Positions 29,552 to 39,651 of a stretch of 39,651 bases of DNA are shown here, in pieces. Source of the stretch: Pseudomonadota bacterium. Lineage in GTDB: Bacteria > Pseudomonadota > Gammaproteobacteria > Burkholderiales > Burkholderiaceae_F. Positions within the stretch are counted from its first letter, which is position 1, and each line of letters starts with the position of its first letter. Both the position numbers and the translations under genes were made by a program. Under the pieces are notes generated by a model. That model ran no database searches. It had not been told where the DNA came from and worked only from the letters and a program-made list of their open reading frames with translations. Location of the stretch: NCBI GenBank assembly GCA_021838715.1, contig JAKCCX010000018.1, forward strand, positions 1-39,651, given 5' to 3'.

Positions 29552-30334
29552 CTATCCCCGCATCTGTCCGTTGCGGCCGTCCGCCACCCGCTGCAGCGGC
29601 TGCGTGTTGCTTTCCCATTCGAAGGCGGGCAGGCTGTTCAGCGCCTGCCGCAGGCCTTCGCTCCAGGCTTCGCCCAGCGCGCGGTAGTAGGGATCGTCTT
29701 CCTGGAACACGAGGCGGCGTCCGCCATCGAGCGTATGGTTCGAATAGATCACCAGCTCTACGGGAGGGCCGACGGTCAGGTTGGAGCGGATCGTCGAATT
29801 GATCGATACCAGCGCGCAGCGCGCCGCCTGTTCCAGCGGGGTGTCATGACGGATCACCCGGTCGAGGATGGGCTTGCCGTATTTGACCTCGCCGATCTGC
29901 AGAAACGGGTGTGCGCTGGACTCGTGGATATGGTTGCCCTGCGCGTAGATCATGTAGATCTCGGGGTCCTGCCCGGCGATCTGGCCGCCGAGGATGAAGG
30001 TCGCCTCGAAATTGGTGTTGGCGGTGTCGCGGTTCGCCTGATTGCGCTGCGCGTCGGCCGAAATGGTGCCGACATATTCCGCGGCCTCTTCCACCGTCTG
30101 CACGGTCGACAGACACGGTTGCTTGCCAGCGAGGCGATCATCCCGCATATGCTTGACGACGCTCTGGGTCGTCGCCAGGTTTCCCGACGCCAGCAGCACG
30201 AACATCCGATTGCCGGGCTCGACAAAGGTGTGCATCTTGGAATAGGTGCTGACGTGATCGATCCCCGCGTTCGTCAACGAGTCGGACGCGAAAATCAATC
30301 CCTGGTCGGTCTTGATTGCAAGGCAATAGGTCAT
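29552..30334 (-). CDS. proteasome-type protease Anbu (ancestral beta subunit)
   Basis: The 260-residue protein is a proteasome/HslV-like Ntn hydrolase. It begins MTYCLAIK, so removal of Met exposes Thr as the nucleophile, and it keeps the catalytic Asp18 (FASDSLTNAG) and Lys33 (YSKMH). Known Anbu proteins form open helical or lock-washer assemblies and lack a clear unfoldase; activity is weak or untested. It has a GGAAG ribosome site 5 bases before the ATG. With the DUF2126, alpha-E and ATP-grasp genes it forms the typical Anbu island. Confidence 0.93.
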   Translation of the reverse strand: MTYCLAIKTDQGLIFASDSLTNAGIDHVSTYSKMHTFVEPGNRMFVLLASGNLATTQSVVKHMRDDRLAGKQPCLSTVQTVEEAAEYVGTISADAQRNQANRDTANTNFEATFILGGQIAGQDPEIYMIYAQGNHIHESSAHPFLQIGEVKYGKPILDRVIRHDTPLEQAARCALVSINSTIRSNLTVGPPVELVIYSNHTLDGGRRLVFQEDDPYYRALGEAWSEGLRQALNSLPAFEWESNTQPLQRVADGRNGQMRG

Positions 30335-30666
30335 CGGCGCTTCCGTTCATTGCTTCCCGTTCGTACCGCAACCGACTTCATTGCACCAGTGCAAACACCG
30401 CCGGCGGAAAACGAAGTCCGTCCGGCTTCGAGGGAAGATATCGTACTTCCTTCGCTGCGGAAAACATAGTCTGTAGTCCGCCGAGCGCGCGGCCGCTCCC
30501 CAAAAAGCAACTTGGCCGCGAGGCCGCTGGTCCGGCCGCGCCTAAGTCAAACAACGCATTTTCCTTCGCCGCCCGAAAAAATATTCTGTCCTCGTTCGCA
30601 GTTGGTGCAGCGCAGGCCGCAACCGGTCTGGACCAACAAAACCCTCTCTATCCAGGAGAACTTGTC
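30335..30666. promoter_or_regulatory. divergent control region, Anbu operon / urtA
   Basis: This 332-base gap separates two divergent operons. It contains the dyad TTGCAC-CA-GTGCAA at 30381-30394, a candidate operator, and a GG-N10-GC sequence (TGGTGCAGCGCAGGC, 30603-30617) that resembles a sigma54 promoter at its -24 part but has AGGC rather than TTGC at -12. A clear AGGAGA ribosome site for urtA lies at about 30654-30659. No gene of convincing quality was seen. Confidence 0.4.
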
Positions 30667-31956
30667 ATGTATGAGGCACAGGTGCCGAAGGGCACTCCCG
30701 TTTCCGGTACGCGAACCAGACGCGCGCCGAAAATCTCGAAGCGCCGGGGACTTGCGCGGATCGCTGCAACCCTGCCGCTTCTCCTTGCGAGCGGCTTCGC
30801 GCTCGCGCAGACGCCGCCGACCGACAAGGTCGACACCACCGGCCTAGCGGTGTCCGACTCCGATGTGACGGTGGGCATCCTGCATTCCCTGACCGGCACG
30901 ATGGCGATCTCCGAAACCGGCGCGCAGGAAGCCGAAAAGCTTGCCATCAGTCAGATCAACGCCATGGGCGGCGTGCTCGGCCGCAAGATCAAGGTCGTTC
31001 AGGAGGACGGCGCTTCCGATTGGCCGACCTTCGCGGAGAAGGCCAAGAAGCTGCTGGAATCCGATCACGTCGCGGCCATCTTCGGCTGCTGGACCTCGGC
31101 CTCGCGCAAGGCGGTGCTGCCGGTGCTGGAGCGCGACAACGGCCTGCTGTACTACCCGACCTTCTATGAAGGACTGGAGCAGTCGAAGAACGTGGTCTAT
31201 ACCGGGCAGGAGGCGACCCAGCAGGTGTTTGCCGGCCTGAAGTGGGTGGCCGACACGAAACACGCGAAGACCTTCTACCTGATCGGGTCCGACTACATCT
31301 GGCCGCGCACGGTGATGAAGCTCGCGCGCAAGTACATCACCAACGTGCTCCATGGCCGGGTGGTGGGCGAGGAATACGCCGCGCTCGGCAGCACCGATTT
31401 CGGCTCGACCATCAACAAGATCCGCCTCAAGCGGCCCGACGTGATCTACGCCGCCGTCGTCGGCGGCTCCAACGTGTCCTGGTTCAAGCAGTTGAAGGCG
31501 GCCGGCATCAACGGTCACAACCACACGCTGCTCACCGTTTCGGTGACCGAGGACGAGGCCAAGGGAATCGGCGGCGAGAATCTGGTCGGCTTCTATTCGG
31601 CGATGAAGTACTTCGAATCGCTCGACACCCCGCGCAACAAGGAGTTCGTCAAGCAGTTCCATGCCATGTGGGGCGCGACGGCGCCGATCGGCGACGTCAC
31701 CCAGGCGGCGTACGAGGGTCCGTGGCTGTGGAAGGCCGCGGTCGAGAAGGCCGGCAGCTTCGACACCGACAAGGTCGTCAAGGCCGAGGAAAGCGGAACG
31801 ATCCAGTTCGACGCGCCCGAAGGCATGGTCTACCTCGAGCCCAACCACCACCTGAAGACCCGGCTGCGGATCGGCGAGTGGCGAAGCGATGGGCAGGCCG
31901 ACATCGTCTACACCTCCGACTACATCATGCCCAATCCGTTCCCCAAGGGGTATTGA
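30667..31956 (+). CDS. urtA: urea/short-chain amide ABC transporter, substrate-binding protein
   Basis: The 429-residue protein is the periplasmic binding component (UrtA/FmdD, a type I periplasmic binding fold). VGILHSLTGTMAISE, INAMGGVLGRK and AAIFGCWTSASRKAVLPVLE match UrtA closely. The N terminus has a long basic region with KRRGLAR, a hydrophobic core and a likely cleavage site after ALA at residue 47; the twin arginine might allow Tat export. The ATG has AGGAGA 7 bases upstream. It heads the five-gene transporter, and the downstream fmdA suggests amides as well as urea as substrates. Confidence 0.93.
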   Translation: MYEAQVPKGTPVSGTRTRRAPKISKRRGLARIAATLPLLLASGFALAQTPPTDKVDTTGLAVSDSDVTVGILHSLTGTMAISETGAQEAEKLAISQINAMGGVLGRKIKVVQEDGASDWPTFAEKAKKLLESDHVAAIFGCWTSASRKAVLPVLERDNGLLYYPTFYEGLEQSKNVVYTGQEATQQVFAGLKWVADTKHAKTFYLIGSDYIWPRTVMKLARKYITNVLHGRVVGEEYAALGSTDFGSTINKIRLKRPDVIYAAVVGGSNVSWFKQLKAAGINGHNHTLLTVSVTEDEAKGIGGENLVGFYSAMKYFESLDTPRNKEFVKQFHAMWGATAPIGDVTQAAYEGPWLWKAAVEKAGSFDTDKVVKAEESGTIQFDAPEGMVYLEPNHHLKTRLRIGEWRSDGQADIVYTSDYIMPNPFPKGY

Positions 31957-32010: not shown

Positions 32011-32055
32011 ATCCGGGGGCCGGTTCCGTCGTCGATCTTGCGCTGGAGACTATTC

Positions 32056-32979
32056 ATGGACGGCTATTCCCTCTCTGATCTGTGGTCGATTTTCGTAATG
32101 CAGGGGTTTTCCGGCCTGAGCCTGTTCAGCGTGCTTCTCCTGATGGCCTTGGGTCTTGCGATCATCTTCGGGCAGATGGGCGTCATCAACATGGCGCACG
32201 GCGAGTTCATGACGATCGGCGCCTATACGATCTACCTGGTATCGAAAGTCGCGACCAGGTACTTTCCGGCTTTTGTGCCGTACTACTTCATCGTCGCCGT
32301 CGTCGTCGCCTTCGTGGTGGCGTTCGCCGTCGGATACCTGGTCGAGTACCTGCTGATACGGCACTTGTACAAGCGCCCGCTCGACACGCTGCTTGCGACG
32401 TGGGGCCTGAGCCTGATCATGCAGCAGTTCTTTCGATCCGCATTCGGCGCCCGCGAGGTGAGCGCAACGCTCCCGGACTGGCTGATGGGTGCGTGGCACG
32501 CGACGCCGACGATCGACATCCCGCGAAACGGCCTGTTCGTGCTGCTGATCTCCCTGCTGGTTACCGGCGCGGTGATCCTGCTGCTGTTCCGGTCGAGCTG
32601 GGGGCTGCACGTGCGCGCCACGGTGCAGAACCGGATGATGGCCGGCGCCGTCGGGATCAACACCAAAAAGGTCGACCGTCTCACCTTCGCCATGGGATGC
32701 GGCATCGCCGGAATCGCGGGCGCCGCGTTCACCACCATCGCGTCCACCGGACCGACATCGGGCTCCCTGTACATCGTGGATACCTTCCTGGTGGTGGTGT
32801 TCGGCGGTGCGGCCAGCCTCCTCGGCACCGTGGCCTCGGCATTCTCGATCGCACAGGCCCAGTCCATCCTGACGTTCTTCATGACCAACGCGATGGGCAA
32901 GGTGACGACCCTGGTGGTGGTCATCGCCATCCTGATGCTTCGTCCCGAAGGGCTGTTCGCGGCGAAGGTTCGGAAGTAA
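32056..32979 (+). CDS. urtB: urea/short-chain amide ABC transporter, permease 1
   Basis: The 307-residue permease is of the branched-chain amino acid/urea (LivH/UrtB) type: GLAIIFGQMGVINMAHGEFMTIGAY is the family signature and about eight membrane segments follow. It lacks the long N-terminal extension that some UrtB proteins carry (about 520 residues) and so matches the short FmdE/UrtB form. The ATG at 32056 has GGAG 7 bases upstream; an in-frame TTG at 32038 is less likely. It lies 99 bases after urtA, behind a strong hairpin. Confidence 0.9.
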   Translation: MDGYSLSDLWSIFVMQGFSGLSLFSVLLLMALGLAIIFGQMGVINMAHGEFMTIGAYTIYLVSKVATRYFPAFVPYYFIVAVVVAFVVAFAVGYLVEYLLIRHLYKRPLDTLLATWGLSLIMQQFFRSAFGAREVSATLPDWLMGAWHATPTIDIPRNGLFVLLISLLVTGAVILLLFRSSWGLHVRATVQNRMMAGAVGINTKKVDRLTFAMGCGIAGIAGAAFTTIASTGPTSGSLYIVDTFLVVVFGGAASLLGTVASAFSIAQAQSILTFFMTNAMGKVTTLVVVIAILMLRPEGLFAAKVRK

Positions 32980-32995: not shown

Positions 32996-34117
32996 ATGCA
33001 AGCGTTCTACAAGAAATTCGTGGGCGGCAGGAGCGGCGCCATCGAGCTCGCCATCCTGTCGGCGGTGATATTCCTGCTCCTTCCCGCGACGCTGGACATA
33101 TTCCGCCTCAACCTCGTCGGCAAATACCTCACCTACGCATTCGCCGCCGTCAGCCTGGTGATGGTCTGGGGATACGGCGGCGTGCTGAGTCTCGGACAGG
33201 GCGTGTTCTTCGGTCTGGGCGGGTATTGCATGGCGATGTTCCTCAAGCTCGAGGCGTCGGATCCCGTCAGCACCATGCACCAGACCACCCCGGGGATCCC
33301 GGACTTCATGGACTGGAACCAGCTCACGAAGCTTCCCGCCTTCTGGGTGCCGTTCCACAGCCTGACCTTCTCCCTGATCGCCGTACTCGTCGTGCCGGCG
33401 GCGTTCGCCTACGTCGTCGGGGCGACGATGTTCAAGCGCCGCGTCAGCGGGGTGTATTTCTCGATCATCACCCAGGCCGTCGCGGCGATCCTGACCATTC
33501 TCGTGGTTGGACAGCAGGGATGGACCGGCGGCATCAACGGCATCACCGACCTCAAGACCATGCATGGCTGGGACATCAACACCAACAGCGCGAAGTACAT
33601 CCTGTACTACGTCAACGGGTTCCTGCTGCTCGGCGTGATCATGGTGTGCCGCTACGTGCTGTCGTCGAAGCTCGGGCGCCTGCTTCTCGCGATGCGCGAC
33701 CGCGAGGACCGCGTGCGCTTTTCCGGGTACGACGTGGCGAACTTCAAGATCTTCGTGTTCTGCCTGGGCGCGGCCATATCCGCGATCGGCGGCGCCATGT
33801 TCACGCTGCAGGTGGGGTTCATGTCGCCCAGCTTCATCGGCATCGTGCCGTCGATCGAAATGGTGATCTTCGCCGCGATCGGGGGGCGGATGTCGCTGGT
33901 CGGCGCGGTCTACGGAACGCTCCTCGTCAACTACGGGAAATCGACGTTTTCGGAAAGCTTCCCGTCGCTGTGGCTGCTGCTGATGGGCGGGATGTTCATC
34001 GGGGTGGTCCTGCTGTTCCCCAACGGATTGGCCGGTCTTTACGCCACCCTTCTGAAGGGGCGGGTCGAAAAGATCCGCATCCGCTTCGCCCGCAAGCCGG
34101 CCGGGCAGCACGCCTGA
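32996..34117 (+). CDS. urtC: urea/short-chain amide ABC transporter, permease 2
   Basis: The 373-residue second permease (LivM/UrtC/FmdF type) has the signature VWGYGGVLSLGQGVFFGLGGYCMAM and closes with the membrane segments around SLWLLLMGGMFIGVVLLFPNGLAGL. GGAGGG lies 7 bases before the ATG. It follows urtB after 16 bases. It would form the transmembrane channel with UrtB. Confidence 0.92.
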   Translation: MQAFYKKFVGGRSGAIELAILSAVIFLLLPATLDIFRLNLVGKYLTYAFAAVSLVMVWGYGGVLSLGQGVFFGLGGYCMAMFLKLEASDPVSTMHQTTPGIPDFMDWNQLTKLPAFWVPFHSLTFSLIAVLVVPAAFAYVVGATMFKRRVSGVYFSIITQAVAAILTILVVGQQGWTGGINGITDLKTMHGWDINTNSAKYILYYVNGFLLLGVIMVCRYVLSSKLGRLLLAMRDREDRVRFSGYDVANFKIFVFCLGAAISAIGGAMFTLQVGFMSPSFIGIVPSIEMVIFAAIGGRMSLVGAVYGTLLVNYGKSTFSESFPSLWLLLMGGMFIGVVLLFPNGLAGLYATLLKGRVEKIRIRFARKPAGQHA

Positions 34118-34144: not shown

Positions 34145-34891
34145 ATGAAACATCGCAACGAGATCGTTCTCGCCATCGAGGATCTCACCGTGTCGTTCGA
34201 CGGCTTCAAGGCGGTCGACGGACTGAACCTGTATGTGGAGAAGGACGAGCTTCGGGCGGTCATCGGCCCCAACGGCGCCGGGAAGACGACCGTGTTGGAC
34301 CTGATCTGCGGCAAGACCAAGGCGACGGCCGGGAGCATTCAGTTCAAGGGGATCGAACTCACCGCGATGCCGGAACACAAGATCGTGCAGGCGGGCGTCG
34401 GTCGGAAATTCCAGAATCCATCCATATACGAAAACCTGACGGTGTTCGAGAACCTGGAGATTTCCTATCCCCGCGGGCGTGGAGTGATCGGATCCCTGCT
34501 GTTCGAGCGGACCAGCGACGTGACCGATCGCATCCACGAGGTCCTCGAGGAAATCTTCCTCGTCGATCACCCGAACACCCAGGCCGGCCTGCTCAGCCAC
34601 GGCCAGAAGCAATGGCTGGAGATCGGGATGCTGATCATCCAGAACCCCGAACTTCTGTTGCTCGACGAGCCGGTGGCGGGGATGAGCGTTTCGGAGCGCG
34701 AAAAGACGGCGGAACTCCTCAACCGGATATCGAAGGGGCGTTCCGTGATCGTGATCGAGCACGACATGGAATTCGTCAAGCGCATTGCCGACAACGTCAC
34801 CGTGCTGCATCAGGGAAAGCTGCTGGCGGAGGGAAGCATGGAGTCCGTGCAGGGCAATCCGAAGGTGATCGAGGTCTATTTGGGACATTGA
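34145..34891 (+). CDS. urtD: urea/short-chain amide ABC transporter, ATPase 1
   Basis: The 248-residue ATPase (LivG/UrtD type) has Walker A GPNGAGKT at 41-48, the signature LSHGQKQWLEIGM, Walker B LLLLDEPVAGM and the switch histidine in VIVIEHDMEFVKRIAD. The LSHGQ signature in place of LSGGQ is usual for UrtD. It follows urtC after 27 bases. It powers the transporter together with UrtE. Confidence 0.94.
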   Translation: MKHRNEIVLAIEDLTVSFDGFKAVDGLNLYVEKDELRAVIGPNGAGKTTVLDLICGKTKATAGSIQFKGIELTAMPEHKIVQAGVGRKFQNPSIYENLTVFENLEISYPRGRGVIGSLLFERTSDVTDRIHEVLEEIFLVDHPNTQAGLLSHGQKQWLEIGMLIIQNPELLLLDEPVAGMSVSEREKTAELLNRISKGRSVIVIEHDMEFVKRIADNVTVLHQGKLLAEGSMESVQGNPKVIEVYLGH

Positions 34892-34902: not shown

Positions 34903-35604
34903 ATGACCGGTTCGACATTCCGCATCAAGAATCTTTCCTCCGGATATGGGCAGAGCGAGGTCATCCACGATCTCAGCTTCGATATCGAGGGCAGCGAAAT
35001 CGTTGCGATCATGGGGCGCAACGGGATGGGGAAATCCACCCTCTTCCGCACGCTCATGGGCGTCCTGCCGGCGTTTCGGGGCGACGTGGTGCTGGACGGG
35101 CAGTCCCTCGACCGCCTGGAGTCGCACCAGCGCGTCGGGCGGGGAATCGCCTATGTGCCGCAGGGCCGGATGATTTTTTCCCACATGACGGTCGAGGAAA
35201 ACATTCGAACCGGGCTGCCGCCCGGCGCGCAGGGGAAGGTGCCCGAGGAGCTGTATGCGCTGTTCCCGGTTCTGTTCGACATGCGCGCCCGCAAAGGCGG
35301 GAATTTGTCCGGTGGCCAGCAACAGCAGCTCGCCATCGCGCGCGCGCTGGCGACCAATCCCAAGGTGCTGTTGCTCGACGAGCCGACCGAGGGGATTCAG
35401 CCGTCGATCATCAAGGATATCGCCAAGAGCCTGCGCGAGATTCGCACGCTGCGCAATCTCGCGATCGTGGTTTCGGAGCAGGTCCTGAGCTTCACGTTGG
35501 AGATCGCGGACCGATTCTTTGTGATCGAGAAGGGACGCTTCGTCCATGAGGACCAGCGACGGAACGTCAACGCGGAAACCATCAGCCGGTACTTGTCCAT
35601 TTGA
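34903..35604 (+). CDS. urtE: urea/short-chain amide ABC transporter, ATPase 2
   Basis: The 233-residue ATPase (LivF/UrtE type) has Walker A GRNGMGKS at 38-45, signature LSGGQQQQLAIARAL and Walker B VLLLDEPTEGIQPSII; the GRNGMGK and TEGIQPS variants are typical of UrtE. The switch position reads VVSEQVL, with Gln where most ABC ATPases have His, which is also seen in this subfamily. AGGAGG at 34891-34896 precedes the ATG by 6 bases, and the start is 11 bases after urtD. Confidence 0.94.
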   Translation: MTGSTFRIKNLSSGYGQSEVIHDLSFDIEGSEIVAIMGRNGMGKSTLFRTLMGVLPAFRGDVVLDGQSLDRLESHQRVGRGIAYVPQGRMIFSHMTVEENIRTGLPPGAQGKVPEELYALFPVLFDMRARKGGNLSGGQQQQLAIARALATNPKVLLLDEPTEGIQPSIIKDIAKSLREIRTLRNLAIVVSEQVLSFTLEIADRFFVIEKGRFVHEDQRRNVNAETISRYLSI

Positions 35605-35678: not shown

Positions 35679-36905
35679 ATGACGAATACGCTAATCAAAG
35701 TCGATCTCGCACAGTCGCCGTATGAAAACGAATCGGTCCACAACCGGTGGCATCCGGACATCCCGATGGCTGCGTGGGTCAATCCGGGGGACGATTTCGT
35801 TCTCGAGACCTACGACTGGACCGGCGGCTACATCCAGAACAACGACAGTGCGGACGACGTCCGCGATATCGATCTCAGCACGGTCCACTTCCTGAGCGGG
35901 CCGATCGGCGTGAAGGGGGCCGAGCCCGGCGACCTGCTGGTCGTCGATCTGCTCGACATCGGCGCCAAGCCGGAAAGTCTGTGGGGATTCAACGGCGTCT
36001 TCAGCAAGAAGAACGGCGGCGGGTTCCTTACCGAGCACTTTCCCAAGGCGCAAAAGTCGATCTGGGATTTCCATGGCATGTTCACGAGTTCGCGGCATGT
36101 CCCCGGCGTCCGGTTCGCCGGACTGATTCATCCGGGGTTGATCGGCTGCCTGCCCGACCGCCAGATGCTCGAGATGTGGAATACGCGGGAACAGGACTTC
36201 ATCGCCACCGACCCGGGCCGCGTGCCGCCGCTCGCCAATCCGCCGTCCGCGAAGACGGCGCACATGGGGAAACTCCAGGGAGCGGCGCGGGACCAGGCCG
36301 CTGCGGAAGGCGCGCGCACGGTGCCGCCGCGGGAGCACGGCGGCAACTGCGACATCAAGGATCTTTCCCGGGGGTCGAAAGTCTTTTTCCCGGTGTACGT
36401 CGACGGTGCCGGATTGTCGGTGGGTGACCTGCACTTCAGCCAGGGCGATGGCGAGATCACCTTCTGCGGCGCGATCGAAATGGCCGGATGGGTGCACATG
36501 CGGGTGAGCCTCATCAAGGGCGGCATGGCCAAGTACGGCATCAAGAACCCCATCTTCAAGCCGAGCCCGATCACGCCGACCTATCGCGACTACGTGATCT
36601 TCGAAGGCATCTCGGTCGATGAGGCAGGGAAACAGCACTACCTGGACGTGCACGTCGCATACCGCCAGGCCTGCCTCAACGCCATCGAATACCTGAAGAA
36701 ATTCGGCTACTCGGGCGCCCAGGCGTATTCGATTCTGGGCACGGCGCCGGTGCAGGGACACATCAGCGGCGTCGTCGACATCCCGAACGCCTGCGCGACG
36801 CTCTGGCTGCCGACGGAGATCTTCGAGTTCGACATCAATCCCACGGCGGCGGGACCGATCCGGCACATCGCCGGCGGCGTCGACCTTCCCCTGTCGGAAG
36901 ACTGA
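35679..36905 (+). CDS. fmdA: formamidase (acetamidase/formamidase family)
   Basis: The 408-residue enzyme hydrolyses formamide, and in relatives short-chain amides, to ammonia and the acid. It begins MTNTLIKVDLAQSPYENESVHNRWHPDIP and has the segments HVPGVRFAGLIHPGLIGCLP and PPREHGGNCDIKDLSRGSKVFFPVYV typical of FmdA; length is almost identical to Methylophilus methylotrophus FmdA (about 407). GGGAGA lies 8 bases before the ATG. Position right after the amide-type transporter supports a route in which imported amides are used as a nitrogen source. Confidence 0.95.
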   Translation: MTNTLIKVDLAQSPYENESVHNRWHPDIPMAAWVNPGDDFVLETYDWTGGYIQNNDSADDVRDIDLSTVHFLSGPIGVKGAEPGDLLVVDLLDIGAKPESLWGFNGVFSKKNGGGFLTEHFPKAQKSIWDFHGMFTSSRHVPGVRFAGLIHPGLIGCLPDRQMLEMWNTREQDFIATDPGRVPPLANPPSAKTAHMGKLQGAARDQAAAEGARTVPPREHGGNCDIKDLSRGSKVFFPVYVDGAGLSVGDLHFSQGDGEITFCGAIEMAGWVHMRVSLIKGGMAKYGIKNPIFKPSPITPTYRDYVIFEGISVDEAGKQHYLDVHVAYRQACLNAIEYLKKFGYSGAQAYSILGTAPVQGHISGVVDIPNACATLWLPTEIFEFDINPTAAGPIRHIAGGVDLPLSED

Positions 36906-36915
36906 CGGAAACGCG

Positions 36916-36942
36916 GCGGCTCGCGGGCATGGCGCGAGCCGC
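36916..36942 (+). repeat. hairpin between fmdA and fmdB
   Basis: GCGGCTCGCG (36916-36925) and CGCGAGCCGC (36933-36942) form a perfect 10-bp stem with a 7-base loop, starting 10 bases after the fmdA stop. It is not followed by a U tract. It probably stabilises the fmdA message and lowers fmdB expression relative to it. Confidence 0.7.
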
Positions 36943-36967
36943 ACCCACCTTCCCAAGAGGTTCGAGC

Positions 36968-37309
36968 ATGCCGATCTACGACTATCTCTGTGACCATTGC
37001 GGCAGCTTTTCCGTGCTGCGCCCGATCGACCAGCGGGATGCCGGTTGCCGCTGCCCGACGTGCGAGGGCGTCGCGCGGCGCGCCATCCTGTCGGCGCCGG
37101 CGCTGTCGTCGATGCCCGCGCATGCCCGCGCGGCCCATGCCACCAACGAGCGCGCGGCGCATGCGCCGCGCACGAGCGCGGAATATCAGGCGTCCCGGCA
37201 TCCGCCGGGATGCGGCTGCTGCGGTTCGAAAAAATCCCGCGCCACCGTGCGCAGTGCCGACGGCGCCAAGGGGTTTCCCACCAAGCGTCCGTGGATGATC
37301 AGCCACTGA
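36968..37309 (+). CDS. fmdB: FmdB family zinc-ribbon protein
   Basis: The 113-residue protein starts MPIYDYLCDHCG and has the FmdB-type zinc ribbon with Cys8, Cys11, Cys29 and Cys32, plus a C-terminal GCGCCGSKK (Cys82, 84, 85). In Methylophilus the homologue is proposed to regulate formamidase expression. The middle is alanine- and histidine-rich and probably flexible. AAGAGG lies 7 bases before the ATG, which is favoured over ATG 36929 because that one lies in the loop of the preceding hairpin and adds unconserved residues. Confidence 0.92.
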   Translation: MPIYDYLCDHCGSFSVLRPIDQRDAGCRCPTCEGVARRAILSAPALSSMPAHARAAHATNERAAHAPRTSAEYQASRHPPGCGCCGSKKSRATVRSADGAKGFPTKRPWMISH

Positions 37310-37525: not shown

Positions 37526-39651
37526 ATGGGCACTGCGACACAAAAGATTTCTCCGATTCGGCGCCGATACAACTCCTGGGTCGCCGATCAGACCATGGAG
37601 GACTACGCGTTGCGCTACACGCCGCGTCAGTTTCGGAAGTGGTCGGAACTGCGCGTCGCCAACACGGCATCCGGTGCCGCCTCGTTTCTTGCCATGGAGA
37701 CCATCGGCGGCACCATCGCGATGAAATACGGATTTGCCAACGCGGTGGCGGCGATTCTGCTCGTTGGAGTGGTGATTTTCGTAACCGGACTGCCGATCAG
37801 CTACTACGCCGCCCGGTATGGGTTGGACATGGACCTGCTGACGCGCGGCGCCGGCTTCGGCTACCTCGGTTCGACGGTCACCTCGCTCATCTACGCGAGC
37901 TTCACGTTCATATTTTTCGCGCTCGAAGCATCCATCATGGCGATGGCGCTGCAGATGTGGCTGAAGATCGGGATGCTCTGGTGCTATCTCCTGAGCTCCA
38001 TCGTCATCATTCCGTTGGCGATCCGCGGCATCACCTTGATATCCCGATTGCAGGCATGGACGCAGCCGGTCTGGCTCCTGCTGCTGGTCCTGCCCTATCT
38101 TGCCATCGCGTGGCACAGCCCCGGGGAGTTTCGCGATTTTTCGCGATTTTCCGGGCAGGTGTCCCGAACCGCCGGATTCGATCTCGCGATGTTCGGCGCC
38201 GCCGCGGTCATCCCCTTCTCGTTGATCGTGCAGATCGGCGAGCAGGTGGACTTCCTGCGGTTCCTTCCGGAACGCACGCCGGAGAACCGCCTCCGGTGGT
38301 GGTCTGCCGTTCTGCTCGCCGGTCCCGGATGGATCGGCCCCGGCGTCCTCAAAATGCTGGGCGGCGCGTTCCTCACCTTTCTGGCGATCCGCCACGGCAC
38401 GCCGCCGGCGCACGCCGTCGAACCGACCCAGATGTACTTGACGGGGTATGCCGGCGTGTTCCGGTCGCCGACGCTCATTCTGGCGGCGACCGTGCTGTTC
38501 GTCATCGTGTCGCAGACCAAGATCAACGTGACGAATGCCTATGCCGGTTCGCTCGCCTGGTCCAACTTCTTCGCCCGCCTGACCCACAACCACCCGGGTC
38601 GGGTCGTCTGGCTGATCTTCAATGTGGTGATCGCGCTGGTGCTCATGGCCATGGACGTCTTCCATGCCATCGATCGCGTGCTCGGCTTCTACAGCAATAT
38701 TGCGATCGCGTGGGTGGGGGCCCTGGTCGGTGATCTCCTCGTCAACAAGCCGCTCGGCCTGAGCCCCGCCGGAATCGAGTTCAAGCGCGGCCATCTGTAC
38801 GACGTGAATCCCGTCGGCGTCGGCGCGATGGGGCTGGCGGCGGCGGCGTCCATCATGGCGTGGTCGGGCGCATTGGGCGAGCGCTGGCGATACGCCGCGC
38901 CCCTGCTCGCGCTGCTGGTGGCGATCGTGATGTCTCCGGTCATCGCCTGGGTGACGCGCGGCCGCTACTACGTCGCCCGCCCGCACGACGAAACGCCGAC
39001 TCCCGGCCGGCGGGTGCGCTGCAGCGTGTGCGACAACGAATTCGAATCGGAGGACATCCTGCGGTGCCCGGCCTACGACGCACCGATCTGCTCGCTTTGC
39101 TGCACGCTCGAATCGCGCTGCGACGACCGCTGCAAAAAGGATTCCCGCATTGCCGACCAGATGCGGAAGCTGCTCTTCGCGGTGTTACCGCGGAACGTCG
39201 CGCAGCGCATCGACGTGCGCACCCTGCAATACCTGGGGGTTTTTCTGGCGCTCGCGTCACTAGTCGCCGCGGTCGTCGCGATCGTCTACGTCCAGGAGTC
39301 GCAGACGGCCCCACCGGGGACGGCAGTCGCGTTTCTGCAGGCGGCGCTGTTCAAGGTGTTCGGCATTCTGACCCTGATCGTCGGCGTTTCAAGCTGGTGG
39401 ATCGTGCTTGCCGGCCAAAGCCGCCGCGTGGCCCTGGATGAGGCAAATCGCCAGAACCGGCTGCTCACGATGGAAATCGATGCGCACCAGCGCACGGACA
39501 TGGCCTTGCAGAAGGCGAAGGAATCGGCGGAGGCCGCGAATCAGGCCAAGACCCGCTATGTCGCGGGCATCACCCACGAATTGCGTTCCCCCCTCAACAG
39601 CATCCTGGGGTATAGCCAGATCCTGCTGAAAAGCCGGGCCGCCTCGCAGGC
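37526..39651 (+). CDS. NCS1-like permease fused to a sensor histidine kinase (partial, runs off the right edge)
   Basis: 708 codons are open to the window end. Residues about 40-480 form an NCS1-type (purine/hydantoin permease-like) membrane domain with about 12 segments, including FGYLGSTVTSLIYASFTFIFF. A cysteine-rich module follows, with Cys at 499, 502, 514, 522, 525, 526, 532 and 536. Two more membrane segments (about 569-590 and 610-632) and a helical linker lead to the HisKA domain with phospho-acceptor His684 in THELRSPLNSILGYSQ. The ATPase domain, and any receiver, lie beyond the edge. ATG 37526 has no close ribosome site; GAGGAT at 37485 is separated from it by a 6-bp hairpin (37494-37510). 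ATG 37595 is an alternative. Probably a transporter-type sensor for a nitrogen compound, as CbrA is for its SLC5 domain. Confidence 0.88.
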   Translation, partial: MGTATQKISPIRRRYNSWVADQTMEDYALRYTPRQFRKWSELRVANTASGAASFLAMETIGGTIAMKYGFANAVAAILLVGVVIFVTGLPISYYAARYGLDMDLLTRGAGFGYLGSTVTSLIYASFTFIFFALEASIMAMALQMWLKIGMLWCYLLSSIVIIPLAIRGITLISRLQAWTQPVWLLLLVLPYLAIAWHSPGEFRDFSRFSGQVSRTAGFDLAMFGAAAVIPFSLIVQIGEQVDFLRFLPERTPENRLRWWSAVLLAGPGWIGPGVLKMLGGAFLTFLAIRHGTPPAHAVEPTQMYLTGYAGVFRSPTLILAATVLFVIVSQTKINVTNAYAGSLAWSNFFARLTHNHPGRVVWLIFNVVIALVLMAMDVFHAIDRVLGFYSNIAIAWVGALVGDLLVNKPLGLSPAGIEFKRGHLYDVNPVGVGAMGLAAAASIMAWSGALGERWRYAAPLLALLVAIVMSPVIAWVTRGRYYVARPHDETPTPGRRVRCSVCDNEFESEDILRCPAYDAPICSLCCTLESRCDDRCKKDSRIADQMRKLLFAVLPRNVAQRIDVRTLQYLGVFLALASLVAAVVAIVYVQESQTAPPGTAVAFLQAALFKVFGILTLIVGVSSWWIVLAGQSRRVALDEANRQNRLLTMEIDAHQRTDMALQKAKESAEAANQAKTRYVAGITHELRSPLNSILGYSQILLKSRAASQ

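Follow-up and report, generated by a model that had tools for sequence, protein, structure and literature searches.

The window analysed here, 39,651 nucleotides forming contig JAKCCX010000018.1 of a Pseudomonadota bacterium (assembly GCA_021838715.1; coordinates without a prefix are positions in it), ends inside a gene at 37526..39651 on the plus strand whose product joins a permease-like domain to a histidine kinase. The full-length protein carries an NCS1/LeuT-fold permease domain, an eight-cysteine module, two further membrane helices, and HisKA, HATPase and receiver domains, in that order, and its permease-cysteine architecture apparently defines a large, undescribed family. Most members of this family lie beside urea and amide genes and beside a response regulator gene, and a palindrome recurs in front of the neighbouring genes. 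We consider it likely that the protein acts as the sensor in a two-component system that responds to urea and to short-chain amides like formamide, and whose regulator would switch on the genes for their uptake and hydrolysis.

One chain from permease to receiver

The open reading frame 37526-39649 (plus strand) has no stop codon before the end of the window and encodes 708 amino acids within it. Within its genome the window corresponds to contig C83, and the sole other match at 100% identity there was the end of contig C136; the two ends share an exact overlap of 125 bp, with 3 unmatched bases at either tip. Read across this overlap, the gene goes on in C136 (L006:18615-20000, minus strand) and gives a protein of 1126 amino acids, the length of the uninterrupted gene in a near-identical metagenome-assembled genome (L007), with 1050 of 1126 residues identical. 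Because of this overlap and the equal length, we concluded that it is the contig, not the gene, that ends at 39651. A Pfam match to HisKA was found at residues 674-703 (E 6.6e-7), placing the phospho-acceptor at H684 in the H-box HELRSP (39575..39577, plus strand), and the part of the protein encoded on C136 matched HATPase_c (2.4e-24) and Response_reg (3e-22). With HisKA, HATPase_c and a receiver in one chain, the joined protein is a hybrid histidine kinase; no PAS domain was found in it. An earlier note, made from the letters of the window, had described an NCS1-like permease, a cysteine module, two extra helices and an H-box in one polypeptide, and this description was confirmed by the fold match, the alignment, the hydropathy profile and the HisKA match. 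That note had also proposed extending the contig in search of ATPase and receiver domains and a cognate regulator, and had counted the lack of a kinase ATPase domain past the window end as evidence against itself; both domains were present on C136, the HATPase_c match being the one given above, and a regulator with receiver and LuxR-type domains (REC-LuxR) adjoins the kinase gene.

The permease domain, residues 1-480 (37526..38965, plus strand), was modelled with AlphaFold2 at a mean predicted local distance difference test score (pLDDT) of 70. When this model was searched with Foldseek, the top five rows were all Mhp1 or CodB (Mhp1, E 4e-8; CodB, TM-score by target 0.74). VIA-align comparison with LeuT-fold chains placed CodB first (Z 29.3, 387 residues, root-mean-square deviation 3.8), then Mhp1 (Z 24.9) and, tied with it, AgcS (Z 24.4); the best-ranked SLC5 chain listed, CHT1, reached Z 21.4. 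With CodB and Mhp1 heading the rows, the model has the 12-helix NCS1/LeuT fold, at 12-17% identity to these two proteins in the structural alignments. Sequence comparison gave an NCBIfam cytosine permease match at residues 25-203 (E 1.4e-5), far below the family cut-off. The Pfam search found no PF02133 match in the window protein, sequence searches with permease profiles found no transporter of known structure, and pairwise BLASTP of CodB against one relative gave no match. Among relatives that are stand-alone permeases, L075 matched PF02133 (31.8 bits, cut-off 23.5); L060 and a Streptomyces protein did not.

The mapping of residues to CodB is tentative, because no more than 148 columns (helices 1-4) were aligned in the profile comparison, at 47% probability. 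By this mapping the stacking residue Trp108 of CodB corresponds to Phe130 and Gln105 to Thr127, both of them invariant in the 20-member alignment; ungapped alignments made by eye place Phe204 at Leu233 (helix 6) and the Na2-site residues Thr278/Thr279 at Lys332/Ile333 (helix 8). These changes suggest another ligand than that of CodB and no sodium at Na2. They bear on the proposal that the ligand is not urea itself but a nitrogen-containing ring compound (allantoin, hydantoin, uracil or purine) that yields urea on breakdown, a proposal in keeping with Mhp1 and CodB being heterocycle carriers and with the annotation of the Streptomyces protein as an allantoin permease. We regard it as quite unlikely: the changes at Trp108, Gln105 and Phe204, on the same tentative mapping, argue against a ring ligand of that kind, as do the shared gene neighbours, which are urea and formamide transporters and enzymes, though only these were queried; moreover, NCS1 proteins can take ligands without a ring, one of them, MetT, being described as a carrier of metformin (PMC13390362).

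The eight-cysteine module, CxxC-x11-C-x7-CxxCC-x5-C-x3-C, was delimited from alignments and spans C499-C536 (39020..39133, plus strand), between helices 12 and 13. Its cysteines (C499, C502, C514, C522, C525, C526, C532 and C536) are all invariant in a 20-member alignment, as are many residues of the permease domain. All eight were kept in 50 of 51 aligned members, including the stand-alone permease L060 of 559 amino acids; the sole exception was L075, which has a shortened tail and no kinase, and the Streptomyces stand-alone relative also has a shorter tail. Two proteins with broken frames (L030, 933 amino acids; L038, 301 amino acids) were left out of both alignments and of the tree described below, and a fragment (L076) was left out of the 51-row alignment. 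In a set of 55 regions the open reading frame caller picked the family protein in 38, and all 38 have the eight cysteines. Downstream of the module, hydropathy indicated hydrophobic segments at about residues 562-595 and 597-632, and the model has helices at 564-594 and 601-683; together they give two extra transmembrane segments, about residues 562-632 (39209..39421, plus strand), leading into the kinase. The surroundings of the module are rich in arginine and lysine, which fits a cytoplasmic position. The structure model of the module itself is poor (mean pLDDT 67), and its fold matches, mostly to binuclear zinc fingers of the RING/FYVE/PHD type, all had E >0.1 on this low-confidence model. 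No Pfam or NCBIfam match fell in the module stretch, where no search with a STAC-specific model was made. We infer that the module probably forms two structural zinc sites. The match of the L075 tail to cytochrome c (E 0.0014) was rejected as compositional; the haem motif CxxCH is absent there.

Because stand-alone permeases without a kinase end in the whole or shortened module, the module is not specific to kinases and is more simply read as a permease tail or adaptor. The suggestion in the earlier note that it makes the protein a sensor of both a substrate and a metal or redox state was therefore left without support as it stood. In its strongest form, such a proposal would have the cysteines read zinc, nickel or redox state while the permease merely anchors or pre-concentrates. 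The near-complete conservation of the cysteines and the zinc-finger character of the weak fold matches speak for it; urease depends on nickel, formamidase is believed to be a metal enzyme, and a gene adjoining L075 matches nickel-transporter families, below their cut-offs. We judge it unlikely, given the poor fold scores, the presence of the tail on permeases that have no kinase, the many invariant permease residues, as expected if the permease senses, and the urea and amide genes common to most loci (metal genes were not among the queries). A FastTree phylogeny of permease domains, rooted by choice on L075 and the Streptomyces protein, placed L060 as sister to all sensors with support 0.79, which fits, without proving, the view that the sensors descend from a cysteine-tailed permease. 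In the same tree the kinase of a metagenome-assembled genome labelled Hyphomicrobiaceae (L011) fell in the Variovorax group; its contig may be a binning error.

Family distribution and linkage to urea and amide genes

We found 33 family loci in the genome collection, and family members in 18 of 369 genomes of a class sample and in 52 of 398 genomes of an evenly drawn phylum sample (permease-module profile, any output type). Plasmid records gave 520 matches, 503 of them over at least 80% of the query, and 340 were from Klebsiella. The family occurs in other Burkholderiales, as the earlier note had thought possible, and beyond them, in soil and marine bacteria, on pSymB of Sinorhizobium and on Klebsiella plasmids; among the plasmid records listed, the copies were mostly annotated as 'ATP-binding protein', as 'response regulator' or with an ArcB name. 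Most members scanned have the order permease-module-HisKA-HATPase-REC. L073 has two PAS domains ahead of the kinase, L159 has a kinase without a receiver and adjoins FmdA and FmdB homologues, and the divergent L072 has a PAS-GGDEF-EAL output and no kinase. The gene for this last protein, in L072:7318-17384, and a nearby gene for ribulose-bisphosphate carboxylase (NF010002, 885.6 bits, cut-off 489) are divergently oriented.

Urea-transporter, formamidase or urease genes were present in 96 of the 106 loci fetched (32/33, 11/18 and 53/55 in the three sets) and in 0 of 20 control windows, which came from 20 of these genomes, at a distance of 200 kb, and were scored by the same criteria. The neighbour queries came from the window and C136, with identity thresholds set by us, and covered urea and amide genes, not purine, hydantoin, cyanide or metal genes; the 106 loci include L075, which has only the stand-alone permease (positive), and L072 (negative). 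The association that the earlier note had read from one neighbourhood was thus seen in most of the loci. Urea and short-chain amides are the common denominator among the neighbours looked for; the purine, hydantoin and cyanide-derived ligands that the note had also offered lie outside that count. A match to the regulator (a single alignment of at least 36% identity across 70% of the query) was found in 29/33, 14/18 and 49/55 loci. Genome content gave a similar picture: a UrtD score over the family cut-off was obtained for 15 of the 16 genomes bearing the kinase and for 70 of the 353 others (Fisher p 1.3e-9), where G279, with only a stand-alone permease, and the divergent G137 were counted among the others (15/17 with G137 as a bearer). 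In the sixteenth genome, G263, the kinase gene is divergent to a stand-alone permease gene, which is followed by FmdA (NF045496 over cut-off) and an FmdB homologue.

The stand-alone permeases show the same association. L060, with the whole cysteine tail, lies directly before fmdA-fmdB, and L075, with the shortened tail, adjoins a urease cluster; both sit where a urea or amide importer would be expected. Beside the permease and urease cluster of L075 is the gene with nickel-transporter matches (L075:7974-8963, minus strand; 257.4 of 450 and 254.9 of 333 bits). Four other loci (L153, L155, L156 and L160) have a second, more distant urt- or liv-like cluster for an ATP-binding cassette (ABC) transporter, at 25-37% identity, on the far side of the kinase-regulator pair.

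A probable operator palindrome

From the intergenic regions between divergent urtA and kinase genes we obtained the consensus TACGTCA-N2-TGACGTA, a 7-2-7 palindrome. This one dyad occurred in 29 of 49 non-redundant regions (61 in total), and in five shuffles no dyad exceeded 6. Of the 61 regions, 40 matched at 12 or more of the 14 positions, compared with 3 of 610 shuffled ones, a count that is partly circular because motif discovery used the same 61 regions. With up to two mismatches, there were 64 sites in 52 of 108 loci and none in 20 control windows; 61 of the 64 precede homologues of UrtA, the kinase, FmdA or a porin, one is upstream of UreD, one is inside a kinase gene and one is elsewhere. 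Seven FmdA sites, two porin-only sites and five of eight urtA-only sites are independent of motif discovery. In the phylum sample, with one mismatch allowed, a site was found in 28 of 52 family-bearing genomes and in 33 of 346 others (Fisher p 1.1e-12). Judged by their coordinates, 25 of the 32 sites in genomes with the family are no more than 12 kb from a permease-kinase match, in 21 genomes; the remaining seven lie elsewhere, at about the rate of family-less genomes. The first genome-wide test, in hand-picked genomes, gave 17/20 with the kinase and 1/20 without and is not to be relied on, the kinase-bearing set having been chosen after the motif scan in a way that mostly omitted genomes with a variant site or none.

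We propose that this palindrome is probably the operator of the adjacent regulator. Its 7-2-7 spacing recalls NarL sites. This spacing also brings to mind the inverted repeat of CrbR (PMC5715377). The distribution of the sites also bears on whether the protein senses ammonium or general nitrogen status, the urea genes being just one target. Ammonium is a product of urea degradation, and Ks-Amt5 is a transporter-kinase fusion described as sensing ammonium (PMC5764959); nevertheless, the permease fold is nearest to NCS1, and the palindrome is scarce (32 sites in 28 family-bearing genomes) and mostly near the kinase, unlike the sites of a global nitrogen regulon, so that we hold this idea to be very unlikely. 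In G438, a genome without the family, two operator-like sites lie on contig C84 (L207), 8.4 kb from each other; no urea or amide query matched there, and matches to the window protein were limited to short kinase stretches. Another regulator with a similar site is perhaps at work in that genome.

In the genome of the window, a run of urea/amide genes precedes the kinase gene on the plus strand: urtA for the binding protein of a urea/amide ABC transporter (30316..31956; TIGR03407, 492.8 bits, cut-off 492.75), the permease genes urtB (32038..32979; TIGR03409, 399 bits, cut-off 250.3) and urtC (32996..34117; TIGR03408, 433.1 bits, cut-off 296.2), the ATPase genes urtD (34145..34891; TIGR03411, 376.5 bits, cut-off 304.1) and urtE (34903..35604; TIGR03410, 324.1 bits, cut-off 285.8), fmdA for formamidase (35679..36905; NF045496, 772.6 bits, cut-off 500) and fmdB for a zinc-ribbon RPWMISH protein (36929..37309; NF053663, 154.3 bits, cut-off 120). 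The start codon of urtA is uncertain, the listed TTG being probably too far upstream. Behind the kinase on C136 lies the gene for the REC-LuxR regulator, which is of the LuxR/NarL type (Response_reg 8.2e-25, GerE 8.7e-20). It is followed by a second ureG (L006:16903-17517, minus strand; TIGR00101, 226.7 bits, cut-off 204.2) and then by a porin-like gene whose best match, the ExtI porin, scored 64.5 bits, below the cut-off of 150, and which has no Pfam match. Beyond these, on the opposite strand, is a urease cluster in which the gamma and alpha subunits, UreE and UreG exceeded NCBIfam cut-offs; UreD and UreF, without an NCBIfam match at 1e-10, were named by position and likeness among loci. The second ureG is separate from the ureG of this cluster. 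A strong palindrome site (12/14) lies upstream of the porin-like gene at L006:16856-16871 (C136:20886-20901) and is conserved in L007; promoter and terminator scans near it found nothing.

Several observations weigh against a urea/amide sensor with this operator. No urea or amide gene was seen in 10 of the 106 loci; four of these are on short or cut contigs (L012, L070, L128 and L161), four are in genomes with UrtD elsewhere (L059, L066, L067 and L069), and two are the divergent members of G137, L072 with GGDEF-EAL and L073 with PAS and kinase, a genome outside those listed with a UrtD match. Nor are the loci independent, many being from Marinomonas. As to the palindrome, besides the circularity already mentioned, only 52 of 108 loci have a site at up to two mismatches; 24 of 52 family-bearing genomes lack one at one mismatch, and about a tenth of family-less genomes have one. 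In the genome of the window only the site at the porin-like gene is strong, with a chance expectation of 0.18 in that 20 kb at three mismatches; a search of the window itself with up to three mismatches found none, and the operator-like site upstream of urtA (30543..30558, plus strand; also in L007) is weak (10/14). A variant palindrome, ATACGC-N6-GCGTAT, stands at about the same place in the intergenic regions of L115, L118, L142, L145, L149 and L151, and was kept outside the statistics.

Proposed mechanism and comparison with known systems

We propose that urea or a short-chain amide binds to the NCS1-fold permease domain, which may also transport it, and that binding would change the conformation of this domain. 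The cytoplasmic cysteine module, together with helices 13-14, would relay the change to the HisKA/HATPase core. Phosphate would then reach the neighbouring REC-LuxR regulator either directly or through the fused receiver, which may serve as a buffer or a relay. The regulator would bind TACGTCA-N2-TGACGTA and switch on the urea/amide ABC transporter, formamidase and porin genes and, in some lineages, urease genes. A broader proposal, which we advance tentatively as possible rather than probable, is a widespread and as yet undescribed class of urea/amide transceptors that also occurs on clinical Klebsiella plasmids and has a still-transporting permease, a zinc tail serving as a STAC-like adaptor, swapped outputs (hybrid kinase, PAS-kinase or GGDEF-EAL) and a dedicated operator for the control of urea uptake. 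As a nitrogen source urea is of major importance, and it is also a metabolite of hosts; the family offers a testable ligand, partner and operator; its natural fusions of one permease-cysteine module with a kinase, a cyclic-di-GMP output or no output give a way to ask how a transporter fold drives a kinase.

The closest solved folds, CodB and Mhp1, contain no kinase. The Fmd system of Methylophilus methylotrophus for short-chain amides and urea comprises an amide/urea ABC transporter, formamidase, FmdB and an inducible porin, as here; we know of no permease-kinase sensor in it, no specific search having been made. The UTS cluster of the Klebsiella plasmid pKPN-307 is described as containing UrtABC and formamidase (PMC5506382, PMC13060141). 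In a Klebsiella pneumoniae IncFIB/IncFII plasmid record (L183:11998-16252) with a cluster of this kind, which may or may not be pKPN-307, a relative of the window protein is divergent to urtABCDE-formamidase with an operator site between them; this kinase bears the annotation 'ATP-binding protein', and the regulator that follows it (43%) has no row in the PLSDB gene table. The terms 'histidine kinase' and 'two-component' are absent from the main texts of both UTS papers (PMC5506382, PMC13060141). The ammonia sensor GrtK of Burkholderia glumae, considered here by its description rather than by sequence comparison, has no Amt module according to its authors (PMC12918730). Searches of the open-licence literature brought up no paper that describes an NCS1-kinase fusion or a membrane urea sensor kinase.

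The nearest parallels are the SLC5/STAC kinases CbrA and CrbS/MxtR, in which a cytoplasmic adaptor likewise connects a transporter domain with a histidine kinase (PMC7918813, PMC5715377). CrbS is described as a hybrid kinase that has a regulator of the LuxR type and an operator in the form of an inverted repeat (PMC7918813, PMC5715377), and CbrA, like the window protein, is reported to lack the conserved Na2-site residues of PutP (PMC7918813). In contrast to these kinases, the transporter here is of the NCS1 type, an eight-cysteine module and two helices take the place of STAC, and the neighbours are urea and amide genes, not histidine or acetate genes; the window protein has no SLC5/SSS Pfam match, and its permease model aligned less well with CHT1 than with CodB (Z 21.4 versus 29.3). 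Ks-Amt5, too, is a histidine kinase of nitrogen metabolism that uses a former uptake transporter as its sensory part (PMC5764959); it differs in having an Amt transporter domain, in responding to ammonium and in coming from an anammox bacterium, and its abstract does not mention a cysteine module (PMC5764959). By analogy, the window protein would work like CbrA, CrbS and Ks-Amt5, from outside the SLC5/STAC and Amt families, and it represents a real, conserved and apparently undescribed transceptor family with a strong functional link to urea and amide use.

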